The notes below the pieces were generated by a model. That model was not told where the DNA came from. It ran no database searches and saw nothing but the letters and a program-made list of their open reading frames with translations. From an uncultured Eubacteriales bacterium (GTDB lineage: Bacteria > Bacillota > Clostridia > Christensenellales > Aristaeellaceae): 40,694 bases of DNA. The stretch's first letter is position 1. Each line of letters opens with the position of its first letter. Where the stretch lies: assembly GCA_944349855.1 (NCBI GenBank), contig CALVNS010000023.1, positions 1 to 40,694 of the forward strand, read 5' to 3'. A program made the position numbers and the translations under genes. Shown piece after piece: positions 22,180-30,270 of this stretch.

Positions 22180-22806
22180 TTACGCCTCCAGCAAATACGG
22201 CATGAGCACGTCAAGCACAACCCGGTAGGCGCCCGCGTACAGGTGCATGCCCTCGATCGTGTAGTCCGCGCGCAGGTTGCCCTTCTCGTCTTCCAGGCAG
22301 GTGGAGACGTCGACATAGCGGCAGCCCAGTTCGCCTGCAAGCCCTCGAAGCGCTGCGTTGACCGCGCGCAGCTCCTCGTTCGTACGTGCGCCGAACGCAT
22401 CCGGCCGCATGCCGGGCAGCGTGCAGTTGACGGGATAGTAGCTGAGCACGTAGACCCGGCACGCGGGCAGGCGGCGGCGGATCTGCTCGAGGATCCGGCG
22501 GTAGTTGTCCAGCAGCGCCTCGCGCGCATATCCATCCCGGCTGATGTCGTTGGTGCCGATGTTGATAAAGACCTTGCGCGGCTCCAGCGCGAAGACGGAC
22601 TCCTCCATGCGGGCGAGCAGCCCCTCGGTCACATCCCCGGCGATACCGCGGTTGTACACGCGAATGCGGGGCTCCACGTTCTGGAGCAGCTCGCAGATGG
22701 GAAAGAATTCGCACAGCGAGGAGCCGACAAAGACGGCTTCCCCCTTGCGTGCACACGCGTTGAGCTCGCGGAAGTTGCGCACCTTGACGTCGTATTCATT
22801 TGCCAT
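22180..22806 (-). CDS. SGNH/GDSL-family esterase
   Basis: A 208-residue SGNH hydrolase without a signal peptide. Block I is 'VFVGSSLCEFFP', with Ser30 the likely nucleophile. The Gly and Asn of the oxyanion hole lie at about 54-57 ('GIAGDV') and N86 ('INIGTNDIS'). The catalytic His is H188 in 'IEGMHLYAGAY'. The usual DxxH of block V reads E185-G-M-H188, so Glu replaces Asp. The layout is close to intracellular PAF-acetylhydrolase-like and acyl-esterase members of the family; the substrate is unknown. The ATG at 22806 has AAGGGAGAG about 7 bases upstream. It follows a phosphoribosyltransferase gene with a hairpin in between. Confidence 0.85.
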   Translation of the reverse strand: MANEYDVKVRNFRELNACARKGEAVFVGSSLCEFFPICELLQNVEPRIRVYNRGIAGDVTEGLLARMEESVFALEPRKVFINIGTNDISRDGYAREALLDNYRRILEQIRRRLPACRVYVLSYYPVNCTLPGMRPDAFGARTNEELRAVNAALRGLAGELGCRYVDVSTCLEDEKGNLRADYTIEGMHLYAGAYRVVLDVLMPYLLEA

Positions 22807-22833
22807 GGTTCTCTCTCCCTTCGGCATGGCAAA

Positions 22834-22856
22834 GCCCTCCGCGCGAGCGCAGAGGG
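22834..22856 (-). terminator. Hairpin between phosphoribosyltransferase and SGNH genes
   Basis: Read leftward, GCCCTCTGCGC and GCGCGGAGGGC form a GC-rich stem followed by TTTG. The T run is short; it may attenuate rather than end transcription into the SGNH gene. Confidence 0.5.
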
Positions 22857-22868
22857 CCTCAGGTTCGT

Positions 22869-23426
22869 TCATTTCTTGACCGTGCCGTCCGGATTGAACA
22901 CCGGCAGCGGCGCCAGATAGCGGATGTCCTTGCGCTTTGACGCTTCGCCCTCCGCCAGGATTGCCATGCACCCCACGACCTCGCCGCCGGCACGGCGCAC
23001 CAGCTCCTCGACCGCGTGCACCGATTCGCCGGTAGAGATCACATCATCCACGATCAGGATGCGCTTGCCGTGGATGAGCGCCGCATCCTCTCCATCCAGA
23101 TACAGGCGCTGCACGTGATCGGTCGTGATGGAGCGAACCTCCACGGAGAACACGTCGCGCATGTAGAGCTTTGCGCTCTTGCGCGCAAGCAGGTACTTGT
23201 TCTGCCCGCTCTGGCGCGCCATTTCATAGACGAGCGGAATGCCCTTGGATTCGGCCGTGATCATGTAGTCGTATTCCGGCGCGAGCTTGAGCAGCTCGCG
23301 CGCACAGGCGACGGTCAGCTCCACGTCGCCGAAGATGACGAACGCGCCGATGTAGAGCTGGTCGTTTACCCTGCACAGCGGCAGGTCGCGTTCGAGTCCC
23401 GCAATCGTCATGTGATGCTTCATCAT
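22869..23426 (-). CDS. Phosphoribosyltransferase, adenine/xanthine-type fold
   Basis: A 185-residue type I phosphoribosyltransferase. The PRPP-binding loop is 'ILIVDDVISTGESV' (123-136). 'YDYMITAESKGIPLVYEMAR' (52-71) and 'YLLARKSAKLYMRD' (78-91) correspond to the pyrophosphate-binding loop and the flexible region. The layout matches the APRT/XPRT branch, which salvages purine bases, but the set of base-contacting residues does not clearly identify adenine. Clostridial proteins of this type are often annotated simply as phosphoribosyltransferase. AAAGGGG lies 9 bases upstream of the first of two adjacent ATGs. Confidence 0.82.
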   Translation of the reverse strand: MMKHHMTIAGLERDLPLCRVNDQLYIGAFVIFGDVELTVACARELLKLAPEYDYMITAESKGIPLVYEMARQSGQNKYLLARKSAKLYMRDVFSVEVRSITTDHVQRLYLDGEDAALIHGKRILIVDDVISTGESVHAVEELVRRAGGEVVGCMAILAEGEASKRKDIRYLAPLPVFNPDGTVKK

Positions 23427-23486
23427 CTGTCGAAACCCCTTTTCATGCCCGCGCGCGTGGGCCCGCGAGCAAATCTATCCATCTGT

Positions 23487-23514
23487 ATTATACATTCTTT
23501 GTCTGAAATGTCAA
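23487..23514 (-). promoter_or_regulatory. Sigma-A-type promoter for the phosphoribosyltransferase gene
   Basis: On the - strand a perfect TTGACA and a perfect TATAAT are separated by 16 bases. The transcript start would lie about 55 bases ahead of the start codon. Confidence 0.8.
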
Positions 23515-23613
23515 CGCACTTTCCCGTTCCATCCGGAGAAGTTCTCACCGGATTCTCATCTGTTTTTCATCCTTCCACCCTTTTTCCCCGCGCCGTGCAG
23601 GCGTATGATGGAA

Positions 23614-23656
23614 GCATATTCGGAAGCGCATTCGAAAGCGCATTCGAAAGCGTTTC
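23614..23656 (+). repeat. 12-bp short tandem repeat upstream of a small membrane-protein gene
   Basis: Units GCATATTCGGAA, GCGCATTCGAAA and GCGCATTCGAAA are followed by a partial GCGTTTC. The array lies just before the ribosome binding site at 23661. It is in frame with the next gene through an ATG at 23605, so it could be leader or coding. Confidence 0.85.
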
Positions 23657-23673
23657 ATCTCGGAGGGATGCTC

Positions 23674-23889
23674 ATGGGTTGTCTGTTTGCTCCGTTTGCC
23701 TTTGTGCTCTCCGCCGCGGGCGCGTTGATCCTGCTGGTGCTCTCGTTTGTGGGGCGGCTGGTCGGGTTCCTGCTGGGTGCAGTGCTGGTGACCGCCGGCG
23801 TGTGCCTGTCGCTGACGGGCATCGGCCTGCTGCTCGGCGTCCCATTGGCCCTGTTTGGCGGCGCGCTGGCGTTCAGGGCGCTGTTCTGA
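23674..23889 (+). CDS. Small hydrophobic membrane protein of unknown function
   Basis: A 71-residue protein made almost entirely of two long hydrophobic stretches (about residues 5-33 and 35-68) rich in Gly, Leu and Val, with one Arg between them ('GRLVG'). No family is recognised. CGGAGGG at 23661-23667 is 6 bases from the ATG at 23674; in-frame ATGs at 23605 and 23668 are less well placed. Codon use (GC-rich third positions) and the binding site support a real gene. It may have a membrane-stress or sporulation role, but nothing in the sequence shows this. Confidence 0.6.
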   Translation: MGCLFAPFAFVLSAAGALILLVLSFVGRLVGFLLGAVLVTAGVCLSLTGIGLLLGVPLALFGGALAFRALF

Positions 23890-23897
23890 GCGCGCAC

Positions 23898-23927
23898 AAG
23901 CGGCCCGCCGTCTCCGGCGGACCGCTT
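23898..23927. terminator. Hairpin between convergent small membrane-protein gene and phosphoglucomutase
   Basis: AAGCGG and CCGCTT flank an inner CCGCC/GGCGG stem with one mismatch. There is no long T run directly adjacent. Confidence 0.5.
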
Positions 23928-23944
23928 CACTCTATCTTTTTGCC

Positions 23945-25615
23945 TCAGCCAAGGATGCGCTCGTTGATCTCCTCGGCCATCGCGTCCAGCAGCGCCTCGG
24001 CGACCGCCGGGTCGTCCGCGCGAGCGCTGAGATATACCTTGACCTTGGGCTCCGTACCGGAGGGGCGCACGATCGCCTTGAGCCCGCCCGCCTCATAGGA
24101 GAGCACATCGCTCGGCGGCAGTCCGTCCAGGCCGGCGGCATAATCCTTCACAGCCGTCACCTTCGCGCCCGCGAGATGATCAATCGGCTCCTCGCGCAGC
24201 GAGCACATCACGCGGCGCATCTCGTCCATGGGCACTGCGCCGGGGATGTCGAAGTTGAGCAGGCTGTTTTTCATGAAGCCGTAGCGAGCGTACAGGGCTT
24301 CCAGCTGCGCCTTGAGGGTGGTTCCATGCGCCGCGCAGGCCTGCGCCATCTCCGTAACGAGCATGCAGGCCATGACGCCGTCCTTGTCGCGCACGTGCGT
24401 GCCCGCCAGGTAGCCGCAGCTCTCCTCAAATCCAAAGACGAAGCGGTCCGCCTCGCCCGCGCGCTCCAGCCGCCCGATGGTCTCCCCGATGTACTTGAAG
24501 CCCGTGAGCACCTCGGTGACCTGCGCGCCGTAGGCCTTGGCGATCGCAAAGGCCAAGTCGCTGGTGACGATCGTCTTGACGACCACCGGATGCTCGGGCA
24601 GGTTACCCAGCGCCTTGCGCGTGCGCAGCACGTATTCAAGCAACAGCAGGCCCACCTCATTGCCGGTCAGGACGGCATACGTACCGTTTGCGTCCCGCAC
24701 GGCGACGCCCACCCGGTCGCAGTCCGGGTCGGTGGCGATGAGCAGGTCCGCCTTCTCCGCCGCGGCCGTCTCCAGCCCCAGGCGGAGCGCCTCGCGCAGC
24801 TCCGGGTTGGGCTTGGGGCAGGTCGGAAAATCGCCATCGGGCCGGCACTGGCTCGCGACTTCGATCACCTGTACGCCCGACATCTGGGCCAGCACGCGGC
24901 GCACGGGCTCCAGACCCGTCCCGTGCAGCGGCGTATATACCACGCGCAGCGGCGCGCAGACCTGCGGGTCGATGCGGCAGGCGAGCGTGCGTGCCACAAA
25001 GTCGTCGCACACCTGTTGCGGGATCTCCACCAGCAACCCGCGCGCCTGGGCCTCTTCCGGCGAAAGGCCGGCCATGCCCGTATGCGGCACCGCCTCAAGC
25101 TCGTCGATGATCGCTCCCGCAGCCTCCTCGGTGATCTGGCAGCCGTCCGGACCATAGACCTTGTAGCCGTTGTACTGGGCGGGGTTGTGGCTGGCCGTGA
25201 TGACAATGCCCGCATCGCAGCCGAGCTCGCGCACGGCAAAGGAGAGCATGGGGGTCGGCATCAGGCGCGGGTAGATGTGCGCAGTGATGCCATTTTGCGC
25301 CAGGACGCCCGCCGATACGAGCGCAAACTGCTGGGAACAGTGACGGGAATCATACGCAATGGCCACGTTGCGCCCGCCGTTTTTCAGCAAATACCGGCTC
25401 AATGCCTGCGTCGCGCGCGCGACGGTGTACGCATTCATGCGGTTGGTGCCCACGCCCAGCAGTCCGCGCAGGCCGCCTGTGCCGAACGTCAGGTCCGTGC
25501 CGAAGCAGCTGGCGATTTCGCGCGGATTCACCAGGATCTCGCGCGCCTTGGAGCGCGTTTCCTCATCAAAGGAGGGGTGGGTCGCCCACAGCTCCGCCAT
25601 TTCGTGACTTGTCAT
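23945..25615 (-). CDS. pgcA: Phospho-sugar mutase (alpha-phosphoglucomutase, PgcA type)
   Basis: A 556-residue alpha-D-phosphohexomutase that interconverts glucose 1- and 6-phosphate, linking glycolysis to UDP-glucose and envelope polymers. The four active-site loops are present: phosphoserine loop 'TASHNP' with S142, metal loop 'DPDCDRVG' (D296, D298, D300), sugar loop 'GFEES' (395-399) and phosphate loop 'RPSGTEP' (517-523). Length and 'FGTGGLRG' near residue 45 match Firmicutes PgcA rather than the shorter GlmM. The ATG at 25615 lies 7 bases after AAAGGAG; an upstream in-frame start would include the binding site. Phosphomannomutase activity is possible. Confidence 0.93.
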   Translation of the reverse strand: MTSHEMAELWATHPSFDEETRSKAREILVNPREIASCFGTDLTFGTGGLRGLLGVGTNRMNAYTVARATQALSRYLLKNGGRNVAIAYDSRHCSQQFALVSAGVLAQNGITAHIYPRLMPTPMLSFAVRELGCDAGIVITASHNPAQYNGYKVYGPDGCQITEEAAGAIIDELEAVPHTGMAGLSPEEAQARGLLVEIPQQVCDDFVARTLACRIDPQVCAPLRVVYTPLHGTGLEPVRRVLAQMSGVQVIEVASQCRPDGDFPTCPKPNPELREALRLGLETAAAEKADLLIATDPDCDRVGVAVRDANGTYAVLTGNEVGLLLLEYVLRTRKALGNLPEHPVVVKTIVTSDLAFAIAKAYGAQVTEVLTGFKYIGETIGRLERAGEADRFVFGFEESCGYLAGTHVRDKDGVMACMLVTEMAQACAAHGTTLKAQLEALYARYGFMKNSLLNFDIPGAVPMDEMRRVMCSLREEPIDHLAGAKVTAVKDYAAGLDGLPPSDVLSYEAGGLKAIVRPSGTEPKVKVYLSARADDPAVAEALLDAMAEEINERILG

Positions 25616-25701
25616 CGCATCTTCTCCTTTACTCAAGGCCGCCCCGCGGCCATGGCATTCGAGGATATTCTAGCACATTCGACACGCGCCGTCCAGTGGC
25701 G

Positions 25702-25730
25702 TTGACAATTCTCCGCACAACCCGTATACT
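25702..25730 (+). promoter_or_regulatory. Sigma-A-type promoter for the dUTPase-fRMsr gene
   Basis: A perfect TTGACA (25702-25707), a 17-base spacer and TATACT (25725-25730), about 50 bases ahead of the start codon. Confidence 0.85.
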
Positions 25731-25783
25731 GTCAGATAGGCCGAACGCAATCCGCCCGGCCATGTACGGAGAGGATGATCCCC

Positions 25784-26773
25784 ATGCAGCGCATCGCTCG
25801 CTTTGAAAAGGTCTCGTTACCGCAGTTCCAGTCAGACTTTTCCGATCCGCGCAGCGATGCCTGCGCGGCCTATGCAGCCATTGTGATGCCGCGGCGGGCG
25901 ACCCGCGGGTCCGCGGGATATGATTTCTTTCTGCCTGCCCCGCTGACGCTTGCGCCGGGCGAGGGCGCGCTCGTGGCCACGGGCGTGCGCGCGCTGATCG
26001 ATCCCGGCTGGGCGCTCGTGCTCGCGCCGCGCAGCGGACTGGGCTTCAAGTACCGCCTGCAGCTGGACAACACCGTCGGCATCGTCGATTCGGACTACGC
26101 CTTCTCCGACAACGAGGGTCACATCCTCGCGCGCGTGTTCAACGACGGCCGCGCTGGCAAGACGCTCTCGCTGCCTGCCGGCGCCGCGTTCATGCAGGGG
26201 CTGCTGCTGCCCTTCGGCATCACGGAGGACGACGAGACCATGGCCGTGCGCAACGGCGGCTTCGGCTCAACGGACGCATCGTGCGCAGACGGCTCGGACG
26301 ACGCCCTGCGCGCTCTGCCCGACGCCGCGCAGGCGCTCTTCGAGGGCGAGCGCCATCCACTGGTCAACCTTTCCAATGCCGCCGCGCTGCTCTACGACGG
26401 CATGCGGGACGTCAACTGGTGCGGCTTTTACCTGATGGACGGAGGCGAGCTCGTACTCGGTCCCTTTTGCGGCAAGCCCGCCTGCCGGCGCATCGCGCTC
26501 ACGCGCGGTGTGTGCGGTGCGGCGGCGTCCCAGGGGCGTACGCTGGTCGTCGCGGACGTGCACGCCTTTCCGGGCCACATCGCCTGCGACGCCGCATCGC
26601 GGTCGGAGCTGGTGGTGCCCCTCTTTCATGAGGGGCGTGTCATCGGCGTGCTGGACGTGGACAGCCCCCGGCCGGCGCGCTTTGGCGGGCTGGAGCAGGA
26701 CGCCCTGGAGCGCGTGGCGCGCGCATTGGAAGATGCCTGCGACTGGACGCGTGCGGAATACCGACTGCGCTGA
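25784..26773 (+). CDS. Fusion protein: dUTP diphosphatase + free methionine-(R)-sulfoxide reductase (GAF)
   Basis: A 329-residue two-domain protein. Residues 1 to about 165 are a trimeric-type dUTPase with all five motifs: 'GSAGYDFF' (42-49), 'APRSGLGFKY' (81-90), 'LDNTVGIVDSDY' (94-105), 'GAAFMQGLLLPFG' (133-145) and 'RNGGFGSTD' (156-164). Residues ~170-320 are a GAF domain of the fRMsr (YebR/MsrC) type, with 'NWCGFYL', 'LGPFCGKPACRRI', 'GVCGAA', 'FPGHIACDAA', 'SELVVPL' and 'GVLDVDSP'. Its three redox cysteines are C234, C244 and C268. dUTPase removes dUTP and makes dUMP; fRMsr reduces free methionine sulfoxide. There is no stop or start between the halves. The ATG at 25784 follows GGAGAGG by 9 bases; the ATG at 25775 abuts that site. 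Confidence 0.92.
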   Translation: MQRIARFEKVSLPQFQSDFSDPRSDACAAYAAIVMPRRATRGSAGYDFFLPAPLTLAPGEGALVATGVRALIDPGWALVLAPRSGLGFKYRLQLDNTVGIVDSDYAFSDNEGHILARVFNDGRAGKTLSLPAGAAFMQGLLLPFGITEDDETMAVRNGGFGSTDASCADGSDDALRALPDAAQALFEGERHPLVNLSNAAALLYDGMRDVNWCGFYLMDGGELVLGPFCGKPACRRIALTRGVCGAAASQGRTLVVADVHAFPGHIACDAASRSELVVPLFHEGRVIGVLDVDSPRPARFGGLEQDALERVARALEDACDWTRAEYRLR

Positions 26774-26786
26774 GGCGCATGAAAAA

Positions 26787-26823
26787 AACGCCGTGGAGCG
26801 CGACTTCGCGCTCCGCGGCGTTT
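26787..26823. terminator. Bidirectional terminator between dUTPase-fRMsr and mobB-like genes
   Basis: A long stem (AAACGCCG-GGAGCGCGA paired with TCGCGCTCC-CGGCGTTT, one mismatch) with A residues before and TTTGATTTTT after, so it has T runs on both strands. Confidence 0.85.
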
Positions 26824-29157: not shown

Positions 29158-29649
29158 TTGAAAACGCTGACCCTGCCGGGCGGCCGCATCATCGGTCTGC
29201 CCACATTTTACGCCGCCCTGGCCGTCTGCCTGGGCACGGGCGCCATCGCCGGGCTGCTTGCACTCGGGCATTTCACCACCTATCAATCGCTGACGTTGCC
29301 GCCGCTTGCGCCACCGTCTGCGGTCTTCCCCATCGTATGGACGGCACTGTATGGGCTGATGGCCCTGTCGCTGGCAATCGTCTACGAGAGCCGCGCCCCC
29401 ATGCGCCGTGCAGCGCTGCTCGTCACCGCGTTGCAGCTGATTGTCAATGCCGCATGGGTTCCTCTGTTTTTCCGCATGCAGGCCTTCGCACTGGCGTTTT
29501 GGGAACTTTGCGTGCTCCTCTTCCTGGTCATCGCCATGCTCGAATGCTTCCTGCACGTCGATCCCTTCGCGGCGCTCCTGCAGGTCCCCTACCTGCTGTG
29601 GACCGCCTTTGCGTGCTATCTCAACCTGGGCGTTGTATTGCTGAACTGA
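29158..29649 (+). CDS. tspO: TspO/MBR (translocator protein) family membrane protein
   Basis: A 163-residue protein with five hydrophobic segments, the TspO/MBR fold. Conserved features are 'PPLAPPSAVFPIVWTALYGLMALSLAIV' (Pro-rich loop then the WTxLY motif, near residues 48-75), 'NAAWVPLFF' (near 98-106) and 'PYLLWTAFACYLN'. TspO proteins bind porphyrins and related tetrapyrroles and are linked to stress response; transport is not firmly shown. The likely start is TTG at 29158, with GGAAGGG 10 bases upstream; an ATG at 29148 opens a different frame with no family match. It ends 8 bases before the BirA operator of bioY. Confidence 0.9.
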   Translation: MKTLTLPGGRIIGLPTFYAALAVCLGTGAIAGLLALGHFTTYQSLTLPPLAPPSAVFPIVWTALYGLMALSLAIVYESRAPMRRAALLVTALQLIVNAAWVPLFFRMQAFALAFWELCVLLFLVIAMLECFLHVDPFAALLQVPYLLWTAFACYLNLGVVLLN

Positions 29650-29679
29650 TGTAAACCTTTCTTTTGATTTTGGTTGACA
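29650..29679 (+). promoter_or_regulatory. BirA (biotin repressor) operator at bioY
   Basis: TGTAAACC (29650-29657) and GGTTGACA (29672-29679) are inverted half-sites 14 bases apart. This is the biotin-repressor box layout known from bacterial biotin genes. The right half covers the -35 element of the bioY promoter, so binding by biotinoyl-AMP-BirA would block transcription. Confidence 0.82.
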
Positions 29680-29702
29680 TTTTTGCGGGCGGCATGTATA
29701 CT
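29674..29702 (+). promoter_or_regulatory. bioY promoter
   Basis: A perfect TTGACA (29674-29679), 17-base spacer and TATACT (29697-29702). It overlaps the BirA operator. Confidence 0.85.
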
Positions 29703-29742
29703 TTACAAAAGAAAAAAGTTTACGAAGGAGGCTCCTTCGCCC

Positions 29743-30270
29743 ATGCAAAACGCCAAAATCCGCTCTCTGACGCTGTGTGCGCTGTTTGCTGCGCTGCTCG
29801 CGGTGTGTTCGCAGATTCAGATTCCCCTGCCGATGGTGCCCATCAACCTGGCGCTGTTTGCCGCCCATCTGGCGGGCACGGTGCTGGGTGCAAAATACGG
29901 CGCGCTGAGCGTGACGGTCTACGCGGCATTGGGCCTGGCCGGTGTGCCGGTCTTTGCAGGGTTTGGCGCAGGGCCGGCCACGCTCTTCGGGCGCACAGGC
30001 GGCTACATCTTGGGCTATATCCTCGCGGCGGCCATTGCCGGGCGCTGGCGGGAGCGCTGGGGATTTGCGCCGCTCAGGCTCGCGCCCGGCCTCGCGCTGG
30101 GCACATTGGGCTGCTATGCGTTGGGGACGGCGTGGTTCATGGTCGCGGCACATCAGGGCCTTGCGACCGCACTGATATATTGCGTGCTTCCCTTTCTGCC
30201 GGGCGACCTTGTCAAGATCGCGCTGGCCTGTGCGCTCTCGAGCCGACTGCACGCAGCCTGCAACCGCTGA
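29743..30270 (+). CDS. bioY: BioY, biotin-binding S component of an ECF transporter
   Basis: A 175-residue protein with about six membrane segments. 'IPLPMVPINLALFAAHLAGTVLG' and 'GLAGVPVFAGFGAGPATLFGRTGGYILGY' are the BioY signature regions that line the biotin pocket. BioY captures biotin and works with a shared energising module (EcfA, EcfA', EcfT) that is not in this window. The ATG at 29743 starts the conserved sequence; GAAGGAGG at 29724-29731 is its ribosome binding site and is part of a small palindrome with CTCCTTC. The preceding BirA operator supports both the function and biotin-dependent control. The gene ends in a strong terminator. Confidence 0.95.
   Translation: MQNAKIRSLTLCALFAALLAVCSQIQIPLPMVPINLALFAAHLAGTVLGAKYGALSVTVYAALGLAGVPVFAGFGAGPATLFGRTGGYILGYILAAAIAGRWRERWGFAPLRLAPGLALGTLGCYALGTAWFMVAAHQGLATALIYCVLPFLPGDLVKIALACALSSRLHAACNR

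Follow-up and report, generated by a model that had tools for sequence, protein, structure and literature searches.

A dUTPase joined in one reading frame to a free methionine-(R)-sulfoxide reductase in two genomes of an Aristaeellaceae genus

dUTPases of the type seen in S. mutans (3h6x) and E. coli (1dud/1dup) trimerise, and their motif 5 becomes ordered on a neighbouring subunit. In free methionine-(R)-sulfoxide reductase (fRMsr, or MsrC), for which S. aureus 3ksf, E. coli YebR 1vhm and N. meningitidis 3mmh provide structures, the GAF units pair and the N-terminus is free. This enzyme reduces free Met-R-O only, by way of an active-site Cys (PMC6211008, partial text). Fused methionine sulfoxide repair proteins have a precedent in the MsrA–MsrB fusions (PMC6211008, partial text), in both halves of which methionine sulfoxide is the substrate. 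The gene described here is likewise a fused methionine sulfoxide repair protein, but the partner is a nucleotide hydrolase, and the N-terminus of the fRMsr is joined to a dUTPase. Literature searches, mostly of openly available texts, returned no report of a dUTPase–fRMsr fusion, nor was a dUTP or methionine term found in the portion of PMC4921024 that was covered.

The window, a 40,694-nt contig, belongs to genome G000, one of three genomes of its genus (g1) in the set, the others being G065 and G025. The gene (Table 1) reads dUTPase and then fRMsr. This is how the earlier note had read it, as an uninterrupted 329-codon frame holding the dUTPase motifs and a complete fRMsr GAF domain with C234, C244 and C268, and Pfam, phmmer and the alignments all agree. 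Starting from an upstream in-frame ATG at 25775 would lengthen the protein by three residues; the dUTPases of relatives begin at the equivalent of 25784, and the N-terminal 33 residues of the fusion also align with them. A phosphoglucomutase/phosphomannomutase gene is divergent from the fused gene, and genes for MobB and thymidine kinase lie downstream on the opposite strand; with promoter and terminator matches of its own, the fused gene looks like a unit by itself. The minus-strand stretch 22180–25636 holds genes for a GDSL hydrolase, an xpt-like phosphoribosyltransferase and a phosphoglucomutase, in the same order in G065 and with xpt and pgm kept in G025. Elsewhere in the window, at 29158–30270 (+), a TspO/MBR-family gene is followed by a BioY gene whose frame, listed from 29674, probably begins at a later ATG behind AGGAGG.

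Table 1. Features of the fused gene and its flanks (window coordinates)
Feature	Position	Strand	Basis
Sigma-70-type promoter match, TTGACA-17-TATACT, 11/12	25702..25730	+	same hexamers and spacing 5' of the unfused G025 pair
Shine-Dalgarno-like GGAGAGG 5' of ATG 25784	25768..25774	+	sequence
Fused dUTPase-fRMsr gene, 329 codons plus stop	25784..26773	+	open frame
dUTPase domain, residues 34-162	25883..26269	+	Pfam, alignment A3, Foldseek
GGAGG, then in-frame ATG (Met153) 11 nt on; speculative internal start	26224..26242	+	sequence
dUTPase motif 5, NGGFGST, residues 157-163	26252..26272	+	conserved in A3; residues 145-170 with pLDDT <50
Short linker, residues 164-170 (stretch of putative stop/start loss)	26273..26293	+	G025 comparison, model
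fRMsr (GAF) domain, residues 171-329, Cys234/Cys244/Cys268	26294..26770	+	Pfam, A4, model, Foldseek
Intrinsic terminator-like hairpin, 17 pairs, then T-rich tail	26786..26823	+	terminator scan

For the dUTPase half, the Pfam match to PF00692 (E = 5e-11; 42.9 bits against a cut-off of 22) was accompanied in phmmer searches of solved structures by 3h6x at residues 34–164 (E = 6e-20) and by 4lhr and 1dud at 34–163 (8.9e-15 for 1dud), and a search with this half alone agreed with the whole-protein assignment. The five motifs are common to the fusion half and the trimeric enzymes, and the fold of 3h6x_B is similar (Foldseek TM 0.79, normalised by target). In alignment A3 (29 rows) each motif residue is either invariant or conserved at 90% or above; those scored were AGYD, PRSxLG, D102/Y105, Q138, and R156 with GGxGST, which we take to be motifs 1 to 5, respectively. 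Relative to trimeric dUTPases, the fusion carries an extra domain directly after motif 5 and a five-residue insertion in motif 3, the latter placed against the E. coli enzyme and common to the relatives of the fusion. All NCBIfam dut models scored below cut-off (82.4/223, 69.2/102.55 for TIGR00576, and 65.3/103 bits), which makes this a dUTPase of divergent type; such scores lower the naming rather than the likeness to dUTPase. G000 and G065 each gave one match to PF00692 and one to the whole fusion query at E 0.001. No dUTPase_2 was found in either genome, in a search whose control matched one of 14 control genomes and passed the cut-off in none; PF00692 and dUTPase_2 were covered, as distinct from dUTPases of the dCTP deaminase type. 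G025 has a second PF00692 match (47.9 bits) on a different contig, at C2:46669-46971.

The fRMsr half matched GAF PF01590 over cut-off at residues 209–316 (E = 2e-13), and the solved fRMsr structures aligned from residue 178–183 onward (3ksf, E = 1.7e-43; 1vhm, 1.2e-37; 3mmh, 1.4e-31). Here too, searching with the half alone gave the same assignment. The three cysteines are invariant in A4 (31 rows), as are Trp212, Tyr216, Glu275, Asp291 and Asp293, so that the fusion has the three Cys and the active-site residues in common with known fRMsr enzymes; C268, the Cys of GHIAC, is presumably the nucleophile. By Foldseek alignment, 3ksf is 49% identical to this half. Elsewhere in G000, at C12:24579-25466, matches to PMSR (MsrA) and SelR (MsrB) occur together in a 377-codon open frame, so that peptide methionine sulfoxide repair would be handled there. 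Neither PMSR nor SelR was matched in G065 (87% complete) or in G032, a genome of genus g32. A similar MsrAB-like arrangement is present in G025 (C3:1226811-1227698).

An AlphaFold2 monomer model was built from a 19-row alignment (A2), in which individual rows have a few misplaced residues in their tails. Mean pLDDT was 85 and pTM 0.54. With this model as query, Foldseek returned fRMsr structures first (8dgd, 3ksf, 5hl6, 1vhm, 3rfb and 3mmh), followed by dUTPases (3h6x, 1dup). Only about seven residues separate motif 5 from the GAF helix, which begins at residue 171. Low confidence across the arm at residues 145–170 is expected, given that motif 5 of dUTPases becomes ordered on a neighbouring subunit. 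Were the trimer and dimer contacts of the two families both to hold, the fusion should form a larger assembly, for example a pair of trimers linked through three GAF dimers.

The third genome of the genus, G025, has the same locus, with pgm and xpt adjoining and the same promoter match, order and strand, but carries two genes with a 4-nt overlap, ATGA. From motif 5 (GFGST) to the fRMsr sequence HPLVN there are 98 nt in G025 versus 96 nt in the window, a difference compatible with drift and a small indel that changed the frame. In g32, a second genus of the family, separate neighbouring dut and msr genes were found in nine of ten sampled genomes, in the order and on the strand seen in the fusion but with a gap of 9–261 nt between them (stop-to-start distances taken with the best ATG). 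The tenth, G115, gave a single match, and its dUTPase falls outside the group formed by the other nine. Three g32 spacers were scanned for terminators: hairpins of terminator-like form were called on the gene strand between dut and msr in L008 (1458–1471, minus strand) and L009 (1468–1489, minus strand), where shuffles yielded 0.3–0.4 by chance over both strands, and none was called in L013. In IQ-TREE phylogenies of 38 dUTPase and 29 fRMsr rows, the fused rows grouped together (100/99 and 100/98, respectively) and stood beside G025 (99/98 and 100/98). For the dUTPase half, g1 and g32 both branch from an open fork; for the fRMsr half, g1 falls with G046 (86/84) and g32 elsewhere. G032, like the window, has an xpt gene some 3.6 kb away from the pair, which suggests a single origin of the dut–msr adjacency in the two genera. 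G025, g32 and the remaining genomes listed all carry the genes separately, which would make fusion the derived state; we infer that it arose in one small clade through loss of the stop and start in an overlapping pair.

The reach of the fusion was followed through overlapping samples of 200 family, 396 order, 391 class and 398 phylum genomes (1,317 distinct). Among the matches listed, only those in G000, G065 and G071 ran across residues 1–329. The last of these (L003) was rejected as a third fusion, being two genes that share a frame but are separated by a TGA and a new ATG; long stop-holding matches in G549, G421, G161 and G086 were opened and likewise set aside, as they contain the dUTPase half only. 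The count across genomes that the earlier note had proposed thus stands at two species, with nothing further among the matches listed, although weak or differently built fusions could escape such a search and genomes very near that of the window may be absent from the searched sets. The notion of a wider family of dUTPase–fRMsr fusions was dropped accordingly. Outside g1 and g32, no adjacent dut/msr pair was seen among the matches listed for the 1,317 genomes. Of the matching phage and plasmid records (1105 and 866, respectively), none had a single location that spanned 80% of the query. IMG/VR gave three stretches with the pattern, one of them a confirmed relative matching residues 184–315, and genome_contigs gave at least 594, of which 592 were confirmed; in the best 80 of these 592, only L031 has both halves, as two genes.

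In our judgement the gene most probably encodes two ordinary enzymes in one chain, a trimeric-type (PF00692) dUTPase and, after a join of about seven residues, a free methionine-(R)-sulfoxide reductase. The ancestor would have been an overlapping two-gene unit like that of G025, in which a small frame-changing indel then abolished the stop together with the second start. Each half would then work as its stand-alone kin do, the one converting dUTP to dUMP and the other using its three cysteines to reduce free Met-R-O. The earlier note had described both halves as full-length with their catalytic residues, and this has held up well: the active-site residues are conserved, and both halves are under purifying selection. 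Between G000 and G065, dS was 0.390 and dN 0.046 for the whole gene, 0.418 and 0.055 for the dUTPase half, and 0.375 and 0.027 for the fRMsr half; the linker (residues 163–182), with few sites, gave 0.28 and 0.126. Both activities are probably retained, given the conserved residues in each half and the finding of no further copy in G000. M. smegmatis cannot do without dUTPase (PMC3360063, partial text), so loss of that activity here would surprise. Retention of the fusion may need no catalytic cooperation and could have come about by a ratchet: with the reductase lacking a start of its own, a stop or frameshift arising in the linker would cost the cell that enzyme, and the fusion would be kept.

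Three other accounts of the locus were weighed against this one. Were the frame the product of a sequencing or assembly error that had deleted a stop and start between two separate genes, the two-gene state of G025 and the fragmented assemblies (99 contigs for G000 and about 40 for G065) would fit. We give this almost no credence, since G065 (L002) has the same fusion at 91% identity and equal length, free of indels, with 112 base differences distributed 21/9/82 over codon positions 1, 2 and 3; in addition, codons 155–207 contain no in-frame ATG, GTG or TTG from which a separate reductase could start. Of the grounds on which the earlier note would have given up its reading, then, a relative with two genes does exist, in G025, while a sequencing error is contradicted by G065. 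It is also improbable that the gene makes two products, the full fusion and a separate 177-residue fRMsr from a start at Met153, although some free fRMsr could be made in the cell from this site. Met153 is present in both fused genes and in none of the 38 other dUTPase rows compared (36 distinct), with GGAGG upstream of it; however, the GGAGG–ATG spacing is long, and unfused G025 also has GGAGG, where it codes Thr-Glu-Asp. For comparison, ten frames of the window (mobB set one codon late) contain 70 internal in-frame ATGs, of which eight have a Shine-Dalgarno-like match of at least 4 nt at a spacing of 4–12 and five a match of at least 5 nt, and three of the latter appear to be the real starts of genes over-extended in the frame list.

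A functional coupling favoured by selection, whether through the redox state of fRMsr tuning dUTPase (for example by way of the motif-5 arm running into the GAF helix) or through a joint need under oxidative stress, we regard as unlikely. In its favour, the low-confidence arm of the model leads directly into the N-terminal helix of the GAF domain, dut and msr adjoin in two genera, and the 4-nt overlap in G025 fits the enrichment of short gene overlaps among subunits of heteromeric complexes (PMC10666635, partial text). In neither tree, moreover, are the g1 and g32 halves united. The pairing may thus have two origins, and this would speak for a functional link; against it, the position of xpt in G032 points to one shared locus. 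A single clade is fused, and the ratchet accounts for its retention. The role that the earlier note had put forward, a composite house-cleaning protein for oxidative or stationary-phase stress, fares poorly against the same locus in G025 being two overlapping genes, the lack of an adjacent pair outside g1 and g32 among the matches listed, and a terminator-like hairpin called in two of the three scanned g32 spacers. A shared stress role finds no positive support: among the matches listed, adjacency is confined to two genera, and the lost start suffices to keep the fusion. Still less likely is a redox-gated dUTPase, in which the oxidation state of fRMsr would shift the tied motif-5 arm and tune dUTP hydrolysis within a trimer-of-dimers assembly.

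Taken as two ordinary enzymes in one chain, the gene is a real, young and narrow fusion that brings two known enzymes into a new domain pairing. Present evidence makes a broad physiological meaning unlikely. What it offers is a clean before-and-after case of gene fusion, in which one genus holds an ATGA-overlapping pair and its fused form at one locus behind a like promoter, and a natural test of an enzyme whose C-terminal catalytic arm is tied to a second enzyme.
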